In this document: piece after piece, positions 23,020 through 49,328 of the stretch
How positions within the stretch are numbered: position 1 is the stretch's first letter
Layout of the letters: every line of letters begins with the position of its first letter
Assembly: GCA_013178015.1 (NCBI GenBank)
Contig: JABLXR010000030.1
Span: 1 to 51,237 of the forward strand
Length of the DNA: 51,237 bases
Direction: 5' to 3'
Origin: Anaerolineae bacterium
GTDB lineage: Bacteria; Chloroflexota; Anaerolineae; DRVO01
The notes under the pieces: generated by a model
The model's input: the letters and a program-made list of their open reading frames with translations, nothing else
Told to the model about the DNA's origin: nothing
Database searches by the model: none
Translations under genes and position numbers: made by a program

Positions 23020-23844
23020 CTAGAACGCGATCTCGGCCACTTGCTCGAAGTCGAGGATGATCTCTTCAGAGGAGTCGTCCTCGTCCGGCGGCCGCCATCC
23101 CGCTTGCTGGCCCCGGGCGCACAGGGAGCGATAGGAGCAGAAGGCGCAGCGGCGGGGGTCGTCCGCCTGGGGCAGGCCCTCCTCTTCCCGGGAGGCGATC
23201 TCCCCCACCAGACGCTCCAGGTAGCGGGCATCGGCGGCGTGGCGATGGGAGTCGTACGGCAACGTGGCAGGGTCGGTCGGGTGCTCCGGGAACCAGTACA
23301 CCATGCGCACCCCATCGGGCTCCGGGGGAACGCCATCGGTGAGGCTGCCGCCGGCCTCCACCAGCAGGTAACGGTAGACGACGGTCTGCAGTCGCCCCTC
23401 CAGCCACCGGTCGGACGGACGCGTGGGGCCCGTCTTCCAGTCCACTATGACTGCCTGGCCGCCGGGCTCTAGGGCCAGCAGGTCGTACCTGGCTACCAGC
23501 CGGAAGCCGCCCACGCTGCCCGACAGGACGGCTTCCGGGTAGAGACGGCCGGGCAGCCGCGTCGGGGAATGCTCCTGGTAGGTGCTCCACCAGCGCGCCA
23601 GATCGGGCTCGAGGGCGGTGGCGGAGAGCGCGCCCAGATCCAGCCCGGAAAGGTGCTGCCACACCAGGCGGTGGAAGGCGGCGCCCTGCCGGAGGTGCCG
23701 TTCGTGCTCCAGGAAGGGCTCTGACTCCACCGCCGGCCAGGCCAGGCGGCGCAGGTGCCGCAGCTGGAAGCGCCGCGGGCAGTCCACGTAGTCCTGGAGC
23801 AGGCTCTGGCTGAACTGGAAGTCAGGCGGTAGGGCCACGGCCAT
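23020..23844 (-). CDS. PD-(D/E)XK nuclease, RecB/AddB/Cas4-like, with probable Fe-S site
   Basis: The 274-residue protein has SQSLLQDYVDCPRRFQLRHL at the start, FHRLVWQHL, ARYDLLAL, the nuclease core VIVDWKTG, and a QTVVYRYLL motif. These form the RecB-type nuclease site. One Cys in DCPRRF plus three in CAFCSYRSLC form the four-Cys pattern of the AddB/Cas4 [4Fe-4S] cluster. It should cut single-stranded ends delivered by a helicase. The start overlaps the end of the upstream UvrD gene by 23 bases, implying translational coupling. No cas genes are nearby, so a Cas4 role is unlikely. Confidence 0.85.
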   Translation of the reverse strand: MAVALPPDFQFSQSLLQDYVDCPRRFQLRHLRRLAWPAVESEPFLEHERHLRQGAAFHRLVWQHLSGLDLGALSATALEPDLARWWSTYQEHSPTRLPGRLYPEAVLSGSVGGFRLVARYDLLALEPGGQAVIVDWKTGPTRPSDRWLEGRLQTVVYRYLLVEAGGSLTDGVPPEPDGVRMVYWFPEHPTDPATLPYDSHRHAADARYLERLVGEIASREEEGLPQADDPRRCAFCSYRSLCARGQQAGWRPPDEDDSSEEIILDFEQVAEIAF

Positions 23845-26191
23845 TCTCCTCCCACCAGGTGTGTAGGGCGACGAGGGGGGCGGCGGGGCGCATGTTGCCG
23901 TTACGGCCGCTGTTGCAGGTCACCACCAACTCCTTCCGGGCCCGGGTGATGCCCACGTAGAGCAGCCGCAGTCGCTCGGCGCAATACCGGATGCGGGCCG
24001 CCCGGCTGGCTTCGCCCTCTACGTAGGTTGCAGGGGATAGGTTACAGGTTACAGGGGATAGGTTACAGGTTACAGGGGACAGGTTGTTGGTGACGGAGGG
24101 ATCCCCCTCGCCCGGCGACCACTGTTCCCCGACCTTTACTCCCTGCGCCTCACACCCTGTAACCTGTCCCCTGTAACCTGTAACCTGTTCTAGCTGCGCT
24201 TCGGCCTCGGCTTGCAGGTTGAGGTGGTGGCGCACGAACTGCCTCTCGGACTTGTAGGAGTCGTGCACCTGGGCGGAGGGAAAGTCGTAGTTGTTGACAG
24301 AGAGCAGGTAGACGCGGTCCCACTCCAGGCCCTTGGCCTTGTGGACGGTAGTCACCACCACCTTGCCCCGGTGGCGCTCCGGGTCGAAGCCGGTGTCGTC
24401 CTCGCTGAGGCCGAGGAGTTTCCGTTGGTTGGCGGCGATGGCACTCAGCTCGCGACAGAGATCGGGAAGGTGCCGGCCCGGGGTGGCCTGATCCATCCGG
24501 CGCAAGTGCACCGCCAGCTTGTGCGCCATCGCCAGGTCGGCCGGATCGTGGAACAGGTCCTGCGCCAGGGTGAGTATCAGTTGGTCGGGGGGCAGGACCA
24601 CGGCCTCCTGCCAGCTTGCCACCATGGCCCGGAACTCCTCCAGCCGCTCTCGGACGGCCCCCTCCAGGCCAAGGAGAGCCTGGTCTAGCCAGTCCGTCCC
24701 CGGGCGGCCATGCAGGAAGTCCTCCGGCCTAGGACAGCGGCCGATCATCCGGGCTGGGCGGTCGGCGTCTCCATCATCGTCTGCGTGGATACGCTCATGC
24801 CAGGCGCGGTAGAGGCCAGCCAGCTTGGGCGGGGAGAGCGGGTCGGCCAGGTGAGCGACGGCGGCGGCCAGCAGGCGAGCCGCGTCGCGAGTGGCGGTGG
24901 TGCTGGTGAGGAGCTCGACGCAGGGCACCTGGAGGCGGCGGAGCTCCGCCACCAGTCGGGCGCCGTACTCGTTGGTGCACACCAGGGCGGCCACGGTGGC
25001 GTTGGGCTCCTCGGCCAGGAATCGGGCCAGGTTCCGGGCCACCATCTGCCGTTCCTCCCTCGGCGTCCTCAACTGGGTTGAAAGGAAGATCCGCTCGGGA
25101 GCGTCCGGGGGGTTGGGCTGGGAGTCTCCGGGGGGCGTGGGCTCGATGTGCGGAGGAGCCAGCGCCGCCCGGAGCTCCTGCACCGGGTGCTGGTGGCGGC
25201 ACCAGTCCATGAGGTAGTTGGCCAGCCTGATGATGCTCGGAGTGGAGCGACCGGAGTTGGGGAGCTCACGGCGCTGCACGCCCGGCTCCTGCAAGAACTC
25301 CCGCAGGTAGCGCGGGTCGGCGGTGGTGAAGGTGTCGTAGATGGCCTGGTTGGGGTCGCCCACCCGGACCCAGTTGCCTACGGGCCCCACCAGCAGGCGC
25401 AGGAGGACCTCCTGGAGGCGGGTGCTGTCCTGCGCCTCGTCTTCCAGTACGTAGGGCCAGCGGTGACGCAGGCGGGCCAGGAGGTCTGCGTCCAGTTGCA
25501 GGGCGTCCAGGGCCAGGCGCACCAGGTCGTCGAAGTCCACCGCACCCCGGTAGGCCAGGGATCGCTGGTAGTCGGAGTAGATATCGCTGGCGGCCTGCAG
25601 GAGAGGCAGAGGCTGCCCATAGGCCTCGATCAAGTCGCGCAACTGCTCCGGCCCGAGTTGCAGGTCCTTGGCCCGCCTGATCGTGGCTCCGGCGACCTCC
25701 TCCATCAGGCGGGGCCAGTGCTCCCGCTGGATGGCCTTGCGCTGCGGTTCGGTCAGATCGGGTGCCAGGTAGTCATCGGCCAGGAAGGGATGGGTGCGGA
25801 GCCAGCTCGCCACCACATCGCGGATGAGGCGCTCAGCCTCGGGCTCGTCCACGATGGCGAAGTCTTCGGCCAGCCCCACCAGCCCGGGACGCTCGCGGAC
25901 GATGTCGTGGGCCAGGGAGTGGAGGGTGCAAACGCGGTAGCCCAGGTTGGGCAGCAGGCCCCCGGCCCGCACGAAGCCGGCCACCTGGCGGGCGAAGTGA
26001 TCCACGGCCGAGTTGACCAGGGTGACGATGAGCACTTCCTGGTCGTCCTCGAGGCCGCCCTCGGCCACCAGCTTGGCCGCCAGGCAGGAGAGGGTCACCG
26101 TCTTGCCGCTGCCGGGCACGGCGGCGATGCCCATCTTTCCCCCGCGGTAGGCGAGCACCTCCTCTTGCTTGGGCCTGGGCCTGAAAGTCAC
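23822..26191 (-). CDS. UvrD/Rep-family SF1A DNA helicase with an in-frame repeat insertion
   Basis: About 789 residues. SF1 motifs in order: Q motif RPKQEEVLAY, Walker A AVPGSGKT (about 24-31), VNSAVDHFARQVAGF, motif II EDEAQDSTRLQE, motif III GDPNQAIY, motif V VTTVHKAKGLEWDRVYLLSV, and motif VI LYVGITRARKELV. It should be a 3'-to-5' ATP-driven translocase. The start is GTG 26191 with GGTGAG upstream; residues before it come from a CCGCAGAG repeat and are excluded. Between about residues 667 and 722, just before motif VI, the frame crosses a TTACAGG-word element, encoding VTGYRGQVTG and SPVTCNLSPVTCNLSP. No stop or frameshift results. It lies between the second helicase and the nuclease in one transcription unit. 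Confidence 0.88.
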   Translation of the reverse strand: MTFRPRPKQEEVLAYRGGKMGIAAVPGSGKTVTLSCLAAKLVAEGGLEDDQEVLIVTLVNSAVDHFARQVAGFVRAGGLLPNLGYRVCTLHSLAHDIVRERPGLVGLAEDFAIVDEPEAERLIRDVVASWLRTHPFLADDYLAPDLTEPQRKAIQREHWPRLMEEVAGATIRRAKDLQLGPEQLRDLIEAYGQPLPLLQAASDIYSDYQRSLAYRGAVDFDDLVRLALDALQLDADLLARLRHRWPYVLEDEAQDSTRLQEVLLRLLVGPVGNWVRVGDPNQAIYDTFTTADPRYLREFLQEPGVQRRELPNSGRSTPSIIRLANYLMDWCRHQHPVQELRAALAPPHIEPTPPGDSQPNPPDAPERIFLSTQLRTPREERQMVARNLARFLAEEPNATVAALVCTNEYGARLVAELRRLQVPCVELLTSTTATRDAARLLAAAVAHLADPLSPPKLAGLYRAWHERIHADDDGDADRPARMIGRCPRPEDFLHGRPGTDWLDQALLGLEGAVRERLEEFRAMVASWQEAVVLPPDQLILTLAQDLFHDPADLAMAHKLAVHLRRMDQATPGRHLPDLCRELSAIAANQRKLLGLSEDDTGFDPERHRGKVVVTTVHKAKGLEWDRVYLLSVNNYDFPSAQVHDSYKSERQFVRHHLNLQAEAEAQLEQVTGYRGQVTGCEAQGVKVGEQWSPGEGDPSVTNNLSPVTCNLSPVTCNLSPATYVEGEASRAARIRYCAERLRLLYVGITRARKELVVTCNSGRNGNMRPAAPLVALHTWWEENGRGPTA
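24027..24189. repeat. TTACAGG-word inverted-repeat element inside the helicase gene
   Basis: The left arm (24027-24084) repeats GGTTACAGG and GGGGATAGG/GGGGACAGG words. A unique spacer of about 70 bases follows. The right arm (24153-24189) has the complements CCTGTAACCTG and CCTGTCCCCTG. It lies wholly within the UvrD gene and is translated in frame. Layout matches the other word-inverted-repeat elements in the window. Confidence 0.9.
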
Positions 26192-26197
26192 GGGGAT

Positions 26198-26389
26198 CTC
26201 ACCGCAGAGACCGCAGAGAACGCAGAGAAGAGAAGGAGGGAACCGACCGCCGAGACTGCTGCGACCGCAGAGGAGAGCAGAACAGCAAAGAAAGACAAGC
26301 GCACACAGCGTGCGAGAGGGAGTGCACCACAGACACAAGACCATTCATCTTTTCTCTGCGGTCTCTGCGATCTCTGCGGTGAGCTCCCC
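26198..26389. repeat. CCGCAGAG-word inverted-repeat element, copy 1
   Basis: The left arm is TCACCGCAGAGACCGCAGAG with two further words, and the right arm is CTCTGCGGTCTCTGCGATC ending CTGCGGTGAG. About 130 bases of unique spacer lie between. It joins the two helicase genes: the upstream gene's last residues (TAEIAETAEKR) are encoded by one arm, and the downstream gene's ribosome site (GGTGAG) by the other. Confidence 0.9.
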
Positions 26390-28489
26390 CCGGGCGCGGA
26401 GCAGGCGCTGCACCGCCTGCAGGAGGGGGCCGCGGCCCTCGAAGCCGTCCTCGGCGTACTGGCTGAGGCCCAGGTAGACTCGATGCCGGCAGCGGCGCAG
26501 CAGCCCCTGCAGCAGTGTCTGCAGCCCCTCCTGCCGAACGCGGAACTCGTCCGCATCGGTCCAGGGTCGGCCGGAGGGCCAGGGCCGGCTGAGCACGTAC
26601 GGGTGGGTGAGGGGCTGGTGGAGCCGTTCCCACCAGCCCCGGCTTCCTACGTCGAGCCAGAACTGGTAGTCCACGGGCCGGTTGGCCAGCAGGAAGGTGT
26701 AGGCGGGGGCCAATAGTACGGCGTCATCGGGGCCCTGGCGCCAGGCGCTCACATACTGGGCCGCCACCACGCCCTCGTGCACCATCTCCACGTACTCCTG
26801 AGCGGCGGTCTTGCCGTCGGGCGGGTCGTCTCCCGCCACCCACCGGAACTTGCGGGCCGACTCGATGAGATTGGCGGCGGCTTCGCCCCGGTCGTAGTGG
26901 CGGTGAAAGCCGAAGCCCTGCTGGGACAGCACTTCGCCGAATAGGCGGCTGAGGAAGTGATCCAGCTCCAGGGGCGACCCGGCGGCGTAGTCCTCCAGCC
27001 AGCCGCGCAGCCGGTCGTACCGCTGGCCCAGCAGGTAAGTGATCCTCTCCTGCGCCTCCCGGGGGATCGCCTCGAAGGGCAGGAGGGGGAGGCCTTCGGC
27101 GTGGGGCCGGTGCACCTGTCGGGCCAGCAGATGGGCGCGGACCAGGTCCAGCCCGTCTAGGGCCTGAGCCAGGGCGCAGATGAGGTCGTCGCGGGACGGG
27201 GTTATGCCCCAGGCGGGATGGGCCAGGGCGGCCAGGGTCAGCAGGCAGCGCGAGGCGGGCTCGTCTCGGAGGGCACGGGAGGGACGATGCGAGCGCCAGG
27301 GCACCTGGCGCCGTTCCAGCCGGGTGGCGAGGGAGAAGCGCAGGGAGTCGCTGAGGAAGGGGGCCAGGATGACGACCTCGCCGGGGGCCTCGCTCTGCTC
27401 GTGCACCAGCTCCGCCACCCGGTCCGCCACCCAGTCCAGCATCTGGGGCTGGTAGCGGTGGTGCTCGAAGGCCAGGGCGGGGCCGATCTCGAGGTCGGGA
27501 GGGACCGGCCTGCGGTCGAGGGCGTGGCCGAGGCCCTGAGCCAGGGCCTCGACGGGCGGCGAGGTCACCAGTGACTTCTCGAAGGTCACCTGGACCTGGC
27601 ATACGCTCCGGAGAGAGTAGGCGCCGTCGGGATCGGCACCCAGGAAGCGGCGATAGCCGGCGTCGCTGTCGGCCACCAGCAGGGCCGACTGGCAGTGGGG
27701 CAGCCACTGGCGCAGGAGGTCGTGGGCCACGGGGGTGTCCTCCTCCAGGTTGTCCCAGATCAGGTGCCGGTGGCGGTGGAGCAGGTGGCGGCGGCAGAGG
27801 TCGCGCGGCCACACGTGGTGCAGGAAGGTCTCCACCTGGAGGGAGAAGTCGAGCAGGTTGTGCTCCAGGCAGTAGCGGCGGAAACGCTGGGCGCAATCCT
27901 GAGCCTCGTCGTAGATGCGGGCCTGGGCGGCCTCGCCCACCCAGGCGGACTTGAGCCGGGCGGCGATCTCGGTGTGGGGGAAGCCTACCACGGCAGCCTT
28001 GCTAAGGTTGTCCAGGACCTGGCTGTAGAGGCGGCTGCGCTGGACGTGGGCGGTCTGCAGGTAGCCGGCGTCCAGCAGGGGCCTGACCAGCCGGGCCATG
28101 TAGTACTGGGCCGTCTCCAGGGTGAGGAAGACGGGCGGCAGTTCGGGGTGGGCGAATCCGGCCTCTGCGGCCACCAGGGGCCAGAAGAGCTCCACCGACT
28201 GGCGGGCCAGACCGCCCAGGGTGGACACGGTGACCATGCCGCCGGGGGGCAGGTCGGGGTGGCGGAGGCAACGGTGGTAGGGCTCGGCCAGGGTGCGCTG
28301 GGGGGTTAGCACCAGGATGGTGTCGGCGCGGACGCCGGAGTGGAGCAGGTGGCAGAGGCGGGCCACAGCGGCGGTGGTCTTGCCCGAGCCGGCGGGCCCT
28401 TGGAGGAAGAGGGCGCCGCGGGCCTCGGCGATGGCGGCCTGGTCCTCGGTGAGGGTGATGGGGGCGAGGACGGTGTCGAGGGCTGCCAG
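26345..28489 (-). CDS. UvrD-like helicase-domain protein (AddA/AddB/RecC-like partner), probable CTG start
   Basis: About 714 residues from a proposed CTG at 28489, which has CGGAGGT four bases upstream. The first in-frame GTG (28366) comes only after Walker A (GPAGSGKTT, residues 31-39), preceded by the Q-like motif LTEDQAAIAE, so starting there would remove the ATP site. An in-frame TAA lies shortly upstream. Further features: ILVLTPQRTLAEPYHRCL (motif Ia-like), LIWDNLEEDTPVAHDLL in the Walker B position, and VVILAPFLSDSLRFSLATRL. A canonical motif VI is not obvious, so it may be a structural or weak motor. The last residues lie in a CCGCAGAG repeat, so the natural C-terminus may have been replaced. 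It heads the helicase-helicase-nuclease unit. Confidence 0.72.
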   Translation of the reverse strand: MAALDTVLAPITLTEDQAAIAEARGALFLQGPAGSGKTTAAVARLCHLLHSGVRADTILVLTPQRTLAEPYHRCLRHPDLPPGGMVTVSTLGGLARQSVELFWPLVAAEAGFAHPELPPVFLTLETAQYYMARLVRPLLDAGYLQTAHVQRSRLYSQVLDNLSKAAVVGFPHTEIAARLKSAWVGEAAQARIYDEAQDCAQRFRRYCLEHNLLDFSLQVETFLHHVWPRDLCRRHLLHRHRHLIWDNLEEDTPVAHDLLRQWLPHCQSALLVADSDAGYRRFLGADPDGAYSLRSVCQVQVTFEKSLVTSPPVEALAQGLGHALDRRPVPPDLEIGPALAFEHHRYQPQMLDWVADRVAELVHEQSEAPGEVVILAPFLSDSLRFSLATRLERRQVPWRSHRPSRALRDEPASRCLLTLAALAHPAWGITPSRDDLICALAQALDGLDLVRAHLLARQVHRPHAEGLPLLPFEAIPREAQERITYLLGQRYDRLRGWLEDYAAGSPLELDHFLSRLFGEVLSQQGFGFHRHYDRGEAAANLIESARKFRWVAGDDPPDGKTAAQEYVEMVHEGVVAAQYVSAWRQGPDDAVLLAPAYTFLLANRPVDYQFWLDVGSRGWWERLHQPLTHPYVLSRPWPSGRPWTDADEFRVRQEGLQTLLQGLLRRCRHRVYLGLSQYAEDGFEGRGPLLQAVQRLLRARGELTAEIAETAEKR

Positions 28490-46292: not shown

Positions 46293-46319
46293 GCTCTCTC
46301 GCTCCTTGGGGACGGTAGA

Positions 46320-46468
46320 TCTCACCGCAGAGGCCGCAGAGAGCACAGAGAACAACTGAATGGGATTGTCCCCACGATACGCTGGTGCTGCTCTCGTGCC
46401 CTGGGCGCAACAGCCGCCCCCCGTTCGTTTTCATCTGTTCTCTGCGGTCTCCGCAATCCTGGCGGTGA
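46320..46468. repeat. CCGCAGAG-word inverted-repeat element, copy 2
   Basis: The left arm is TCACCGCAGAGGCCGCAGAG and the right arm is CTCTGCGGTCTCCGCAATCC ending GGCGGTGAA. The spacer of about 85 bases is unlike that of copy 1 (26198-26389). It fills the gap between two minus-strand genes. Confidence 0.88.
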
Positions 46469-46476
46469 ATTGCCCT

Positions 46477-48542: not shown

Positions 48543-49148
48543 ATGCCGCACGAATTGCCGCCCCTGCCCTATGACTACAATGCCCTGGAGCCAGTGATTG
48601 ACGAGGAGACTCTTCGTCTGCATCACGACAAGCATCACCAGGCGTACGTCTCCGGCCTGAACAAGGCGGAAGAGGAGTTGGCCAAGGCCCGCCAGTCCGG
48701 TGATTACTCGCTCATCAAGTACTGGGAGAAGAACGCCGCCTTCCACGGCTCGGGCCACATTCTGCACACGCTGTTCTGGGAGAACCTGACCCCGAAGGAT
48801 CAGGCCAAGGGTCAGCCCTCCGGGCACCTAGCGGAAGCGATTGAGCGCGACTTTGGCAGCTTCGATGCTTTCAAGGCTCAGCTGACCGCCGCCACCATAG
48901 AGGTGGAGGCCAGCGGCTGGGGTATCCTCGCCTACCGGCCCATGGACGGTAAGCTGGTCGTCTTGCAGGCGGAGAAGCATCAGAACCTGACCCAGTGGGG
49001 TGCCCAGCCGCTGCTGGTGTTCGATGCCTGGGAGCACGCCTACTATCTCAAGTACAGGAACGCCCGCGCCGATTTCGTGAAGGCGCTGTGGGATATCGTG
49101 AACTGGGACGCGGTGGGGGAGCGTTACTGCCGCGTGGCCGGCTGCTGA
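48543..49148 (+). CDS. Superoxide dismutase (Fe/Mn family)
   Basis: The 201-residue protein has the Fe/Mn-SOD ligands: His27 in LRLHHDKHHQAYV, His75 in GSGHILHTLFWENL, and Asp and His in LVFDAWEHAYYLKYRN. GWGILAY and the closing ALWDIVNWDAVGERY are standard. It converts superoxide to oxygen and peroxide. Which metal it uses cannot be decided from sequence by eye. The ATG at 48543 has GGAGG eight bases upstream. No signal peptide is present, so it is cytosolic. Confidence 0.95.
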   Translation: MPHELPPLPYDYNALEPVIDEETLRLHHDKHHQAYVSGLNKAEEELAKARQSGDYSLIKYWEKNAAFHGSGHILHTLFWENLTPKDQAKGQPSGHLAEAIERDFGSFDAFKAQLTAATIEVEASGWGILAYRPMDGKLVVLQAEKHQNLTQWGAQPLLVFDAWEHAYYLKYRNARADFVKALWDIVNWDAVGERYCRVAGC

Positions 49149-49157
49149 AGCGCGGGA

Positions 49158-49328
49158 GGGGGAGAGGGGGAGACGCGGAGACGGGGAGACGGGGAGACGG
49201 GGAGACGCGGAGACGGGGAGAAGGGGAGACGCGGAGACGTTACTTCAGTATTCGCCTCTACCATCTCCCCGTCTCTCCCTCACCCCGTCTCCGTGTCTCC
49301 CCTTCACCCTGTCTCCCCCTCTCCCCTC
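49158..49328. repeat. GGGGAGAC-word inverted-repeat element
   Basis: The left arm (to about 49238) is a run of GGGGAGACG and GCGGAGACG words. A short spacer (TTACTTCAGTATTCGCCTCT) follows, and the right arm repeats CGTCTCCCC and related words. The arms of about 65-80 bases could pair almost fully. It lies between superoxide dismutase and the GH3 gene and may end dismutase transcription. Confidence 0.9.

Follow-up and report, generated by a model that had tools for sequence, protein, structure and literature searches.

One question raised by this locus is how a repeat built of short words can lie in frame within a helicase gene, and whether it is an intergenic element tolerated there as a surface loop or one kept under selection to stay translatable, as the original prediction had alternatively proposed. 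The positions of the element, its host gene and the neighbouring features within the window (the whole stretch of 51,237 nucleotides that was analysed) are collected in Table 1.

Table 1. Positions of the word element, the helicase gene, its neighbours and the other word repeats of the window.
Feature	Positions	Strand	Remarks
PD-(D/E)XK nuclease gene	23020-23844		Flanks the helicase gene on one side
UvrD/PcrA-type helicase gene	23822-26200	minus	Contains the word element; 792 residues counted from 26200
Helicase motif VI, LLYVGITRA	23939-23965	minus	Residues 746-754; conserved alignment columns
Whole word element	24025-24190		In frame, helicase residues ~671-725; lacking in 80 other entries
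Forward arm	24025-24083	plus	Partial word AGG, then TTGCAGG GGATAGG TTACAGG TTACAGG GGATAGG TTACAGG TTACAGG GGACAGG
Predicted disordered stretch	24035-24154	minus	Residues 683-722; AlphaFold2 pLDDT <50
Loop between arms (72 nt)	24084-24155		Single full match in the genome; other loops unrelated beyond short matches
Reverse arm	24156-24190	minus	GAACAGG TTACAGG TTACAGG GGACAGG TTACAGG; found as inverted repeat
Helicase motif V, HKAKGLEW	24320-24343	minus	Residues 620-627; invariant alignment columns
Second word family	26192-26389		9-bp words around CCGCAGAGA, inverted arms; lies between the start of the helicase gene and the upstream gene and encodes the latter's last residues (GELTAEIAETAEKR)
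Gene for a 673-residue protein	26345-28366		No Pfam match; flanks the helicase gene on the other side
Half-copies of the 9-bp word family	near 46318-46475		
Third word family	49148-49326		8-bp words around GACGGGGA, inverted arms

The N- and C-terminal UvrD domains were both present in the host protein (Pfam matches to UvrD-helicase, PF00580, and UvrD_C, PF13361), and its relatives in the PDB were UvrD1, PcrA, UvrD and Rep. In an alignment of 43 sequences it shared 48-61% identity with its homologues, which, where named, were Anaerolineae or Chloroflexi records with few exceptions. Motifs V and VI were intact on both sides of the element in this alignment, as had been predicted. Between them, the element consists of 7-bp words arranged as an inverted repeat, with eight forward words, a unique loop and five reverse words, and the forward arm contains 21-nt direct repeats at 24025, 24046 and 24067. 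Translated on the minus strand the forward arm gives SPVTCNLSPVTCNLSPA and the reverse arm gives EQVTGYRGQVTG; SPVTCNLSPVTCNLSP is a peptide region encoded within the insert. Read in the frame of the host ORF on the minus strand, the element has no stop codon, which bears out the claim that an element of TTACAGG words is read through inside a UvrD-type gene. As RNA, the element would fold into a hairpin of -87.9 kcal/mol (z -5.8), and a stable hairpin of this kind in the mRNA, which the ribosome would need to melt, might hinder translation. At the locus L105:5001-8270 a second copy of the 3' end of the helicase gene follows ~1 kb downstream, past stop codons.

The stretch that runs from motif V to VI comprised 135 residues here, versus 87-99 (most commonly 91) in 80 other entries, which include some duplicates. 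Homologues of equal length without the word repeats, named beforehand as evidence against an insertion, were looked for among these 80 entries and none was found. About 54 residues are encoded by the insert, close to the ~55 expected; the net lengthening amounts to 36-48 residues (44 relative to the most common length), so that the expected figure holds for what is encoded and not for what is gained. The net gain is smaller because most of the native variable loop is missing: a homologue reads LAQLDALVHGRPYVEGEASRAAR where the helicase studied here reads EAQLEQVTGYRG...CNLSPATYVEGEASRAAR. Among the homologues this segment, which lies between two helices, is variable in length and sequence. An AlphaFold2 model built from the 43-sequence alignment was confident overall (mean pLDDT 86, pTM 0.77), and pLDDT fell below 50 within the insert; elsewhere such values occurred at the termini and in one short stretch (residues 596-603). 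The variable segment, the homologues without the insert and the disorder predicted exactly at this place support the proposal that the element is tolerated as a loop, and the predicted disorder suggests that it lies at the protein surface. The exact ends and the insertion event itself were not seen, because there is no near strain with an empty site in the helicase. In another Anaerolineae helicase (L067:7026 and nearby) this loop was longer by ~8 residues; their coding sequence, CCCTTCGACAAGGCTCAGGGCAGG, has a repeat-like look. A second repeat insertion in this loop (L067, CTTCGACAAGGCTCAGG) is not claimed, since only six similar sites occurred in that genome.

The words of the element belong to a family dispersed over this genome. 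The three-word pattern KDAYAGGx3 gave 174 matches, versus two for a reversed-pattern control; it gave none in the same-genus and same-family genomes and one to four in each of eight others among the 119 relatives searched. Regions fetched around the matches yielded 45 word clusters, 30 of them complete, by a procedure that collects copies by the pattern and its surroundings and misses those with fewer than about three clear words. In all 30 complete copies the forward words came first and the reverse words second. The vocabulary consists of six words, {TTA,GGA,GAA}+{C,T}+AGG, the commonest being TTACAGG, and the arms are 3-17 words long; a pattern requiring H before three words found only six arms because most arms start with the partial word AGG. 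The two arms of one element have word order in common more often than expected (P=6e-4). The loops (13-117 nt) are mutually unrelated beyond short matches and each is unique in the genome, with the exception of one pair arising from a tandem gene duplication. In that pair (L021:3905-4992) each gene copy is followed by an element, and the loops and coding flank are alike while the words and their number have changed; the words therefore turn over faster than their surroundings. The family is genome-specific and conserves a vocabulary rather than a sequence. The interpretation of the loops as captured pieces of the genome was rejected, no second copy being found except for the one gene duplication, as was that of a conserved core or hairpin, since their similarity and fold energy were close to shuffled values. 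Searches of Rfam and of a plasmid collection with the element gave no match. Two viral contigs (L233 and L234) contained arrays of TTACAGG-type words. The purine-rich arm comes first in all three word families of the window (7-, 9- and 8-bp).

For the copies outside genes, 26 of 28 facing stop codons were located at most 20 nt from the element edge, the overlap side of this distance being bounded because the elements supply their own stops, and two of 26 copies lay between divergent genes. The description of the element as intergenic is thus right for most copies, which adjoin gene 3' ends, and does not hold for four of the 30 complete ones, which are in frame and stop-free inside genes. These are the copies in the helicase, in a GNAT acetyltransferase (L183), in a protein that we take to be terminase-like from its sequence features, without a Pfam match (L012), and in a further protein without a Pfam match (L010). 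Besides the helicase, two of the other three have homologues without the insert. The cleanest case is the GNAT protein, which reads VA-RQ-(43 residues)-GYIVG here and VA-VEAGEVV-GYVLG in the same-genus genome, that is, 45 residues versus 7 at the site of the insert; in the terminase-like protein ~26 residues occupy the place of ~12-14 in the homologues. The peptides encoded by all four copies resemble one another, one arm giving a VTGDRLQ-like sequence and the other a SPVTCNLSP-like one.

One important question is how these copies remain open. Successive 7-bp words fall in the three codon phases in turn, so that only every third one can make a stop. The four in-gene copies together have 18 stop-prone word positions, and every one was occupied by a safe word. 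When the words were redrawn from those used outside genes, the helicase frame was open in 4.5% of the trials and the frames of the other three copies in 4.6-9.1%; outside genes, 17 of 156 element frames were open. The words TTATAGG and GAATAGG made up 1 of 51 words in genes versus 84 of 407 outside (P=4e-4, the words within one element not being independent). Openness of the in-gene copies is circular if taken alone, since there are only four and they were recognised by being open; the period in the word order provides an independent test. Matches between words three positions apart reached 41% in the in-gene arms versus 21% in shuffles (P=0.003), which corresponds to a period of 21 bp, and 17% versus 13% in the arms outside genes, a weak difference (P=0.047). 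In-gene copies seem to persist only where their 7-base words avoid stop codons. In our reading this avoidance reflects survivorship, a filter that the gene imposes, and is no property of the element itself; as survivorship, the proposed selection to stay translatable is supported.

We consider it probable that a family of heptamer words has spread in this genome and that its helicase copy is passively tolerated as a disordered linker and filtered by purifying selection. Genome-specific inverted repeats of heptamer words would have spread in the Anaerolineae genome, mostly to gene 3' ends, and one copy would have landed in the helicase loop between motifs V and VI, replacing most of it. Transcription and translation would turn this copy into a disordered linker of ~54 residues. 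Purifying selection on the gene would keep only copies of frame-fitting length whose words avoid stop codons, and the stop filter on every third word would leave a 21-bp (7-codon) rhythm in the in-gene arms. This account presumes translation of the insert, a helicase that is still active, a family that spreads as a mobile element, and words that turn over through slippage or through template switching in the hairpin. The target duplication that the original prediction had suggested looking for was absent when the flanks of the copies were compared (flank repeats averaged 3.7 bases versus 3.5 between unrelated copies). There was no open frame between the element arms, and a search of the genome for Y1_Tnp linked no mobilising enzyme to the family. 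A Y1 transposase (RAYT) was rejected as the mobiliser: there is a single Y1_Tnp gene, its 3.3-kb locus contains no word element, and other palindromes flank it. This sole Y1 transposase (L230, G000:C21:22580-22912) is a 148-aa open frame flanked by repeated REP-like palindromes, and it resembles a RAYT that has repeats of its own, unrelated to the words. A more radical and rather unlikely version would be a writing process of the genome that emits the six-word vocabulary as convergent arrays round throw-away loops, with the in-gene copies shaped by codon-level selection on word order.

The rapid change in word number elsewhere in the genome, the fact that 7 is not a multiple of 3, and the identical adjacent words (TTACAGG TTACAGG) in both arms would also suit a contingency switch, in which the helicase is switched off or on (phase variation) by frame shifts, each caused by the addition or removal of a single 7-bp word, so that the element would be a regulator and not ballast. 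The arms, however, are short and mixed, with no long pure tracts, and the 21-bp period favoured in the in-gene arms keeps the frame; we regard a switch as quite unlikely. It is similarly hard to credit, and a little more so, that the gene is a recent pseudogene or its product inactive, with the element itself not yet disrupted. The insert does lie near motif VI and there is no near strain in which selection could be measured, but the gene has 792 open codons, 48-61% identity to its homologues and intact motifs, and its stop-prone words are all safe.

The kept frame and the VTGDRLQ and SPVTCNLSP peptides common to four proteins could alternatively point to an insert recruited for a function, such as binding of a partner or of DNA, and maintained by positive use rather than tolerance. 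We find this very unlikely: the likeness of the peptides follows from the likeness of the words, the segment is predicted to be disordered, homologues manage without it, and the host proteins are unrelated. Although the genome is in 97 contigs and repeats are a usual cause of misjoins, a repeat misjoined into the gene during assembly is the least credible explanation and highly improbable. The arms are short (35-59 bp, below 65 bp) and differ in word order, and the loop has no second copy in the genome; the reading frame and the conserved flanks, moreover, run on to either side, and the same accident, in frame each time, would have had to happen in four genes.

Passive tolerance of a spreading word repeat, the reading preferred here, can be set beside several known systems. 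Cyanobacterial STRR sequences are short tandem heptamer repeats scattered over the genome. They have been used for strain fingerprinting (PMC5088731), and the family described here is like them in its scattered tandem heptamers, a likeness drawn at the level of description. Bacterial MITEs, REP and ERIC are small, dispersed and palindromic and are sometimes translated in frame (PMC10969869), whereas the element studied here lacks a target duplication, a shared body and a linked transposase. The TAACTGA heptamers of marine Beggiatoaceae are intergenic, with some inside genes, and their orientation decides whether they can be translated; unlike the present words, they are almost all direct repeats (one inverted) of one fixed word, mostly upstream of genes (PMC4679880).

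Closer in architecture are the heptameric G-rich repeats of Xanthomonas (GGGAATC) and Nostoc (GGGGA(C/T)T), which, according to PMC4692102, have 7-bp units with degenerate positions, often form two convergent arrays, lie near stop codons, are few between divergent genes and change rapidly in length, 7-11% of those of Xanthomonas overlapping genes. The family described here also has tandem 7-bp units in convergent arrays, near stop codons and rarely between divergent genes. It differs in its words and in that pairing of the arms is the rule, and it does not have the tracts of at least three G associated with quadruplexes in the Xanthomonas and Nostoc repeats, TTACAGG having two G, with longer tracts confined to certain junctions between words. 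For the Xanthomonas and Nostoc repeats, the accessible text of that article does not describe copies residing in frame with a word order that avoids stops.

In effect, the nearest parallel is found in the Rickettsia palindromic elements (RPE; Ogata et al. 2000), palindromes of ~150 bp. According to the review PMC10969869, many unrelated genes carry them in frame and they are translated as part of the gene products. As with RPEs, the element described here is inserted in frame in protein genes (helicase, GNAT, terminase-like) whose homologues lack it. RPE families have a recognisable sequence and are very often located in genes, whereas here only words are common, the loops are unique, there is no consensus among copies and four of the 30 complete copies are in genes, the RPEs being compared by description. 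The element parallels the Rickettsia palindromic elements in its effect and resembles the Xanthomonas and Nostoc heptameric repeats in its architecture.

Rickettsia is the best-known source of palindromic inserts that are read in frame, and a similar outcome is found here in Chloroflexota, with a vocabulary kept instead of a sequence. The helicase, the acetyltransferase and the terminase-like protein form a natural set of tolerances to loop insertion. Since every third word is stop-prone, an in-gene copy records selection in a form that can be measured from one genome.
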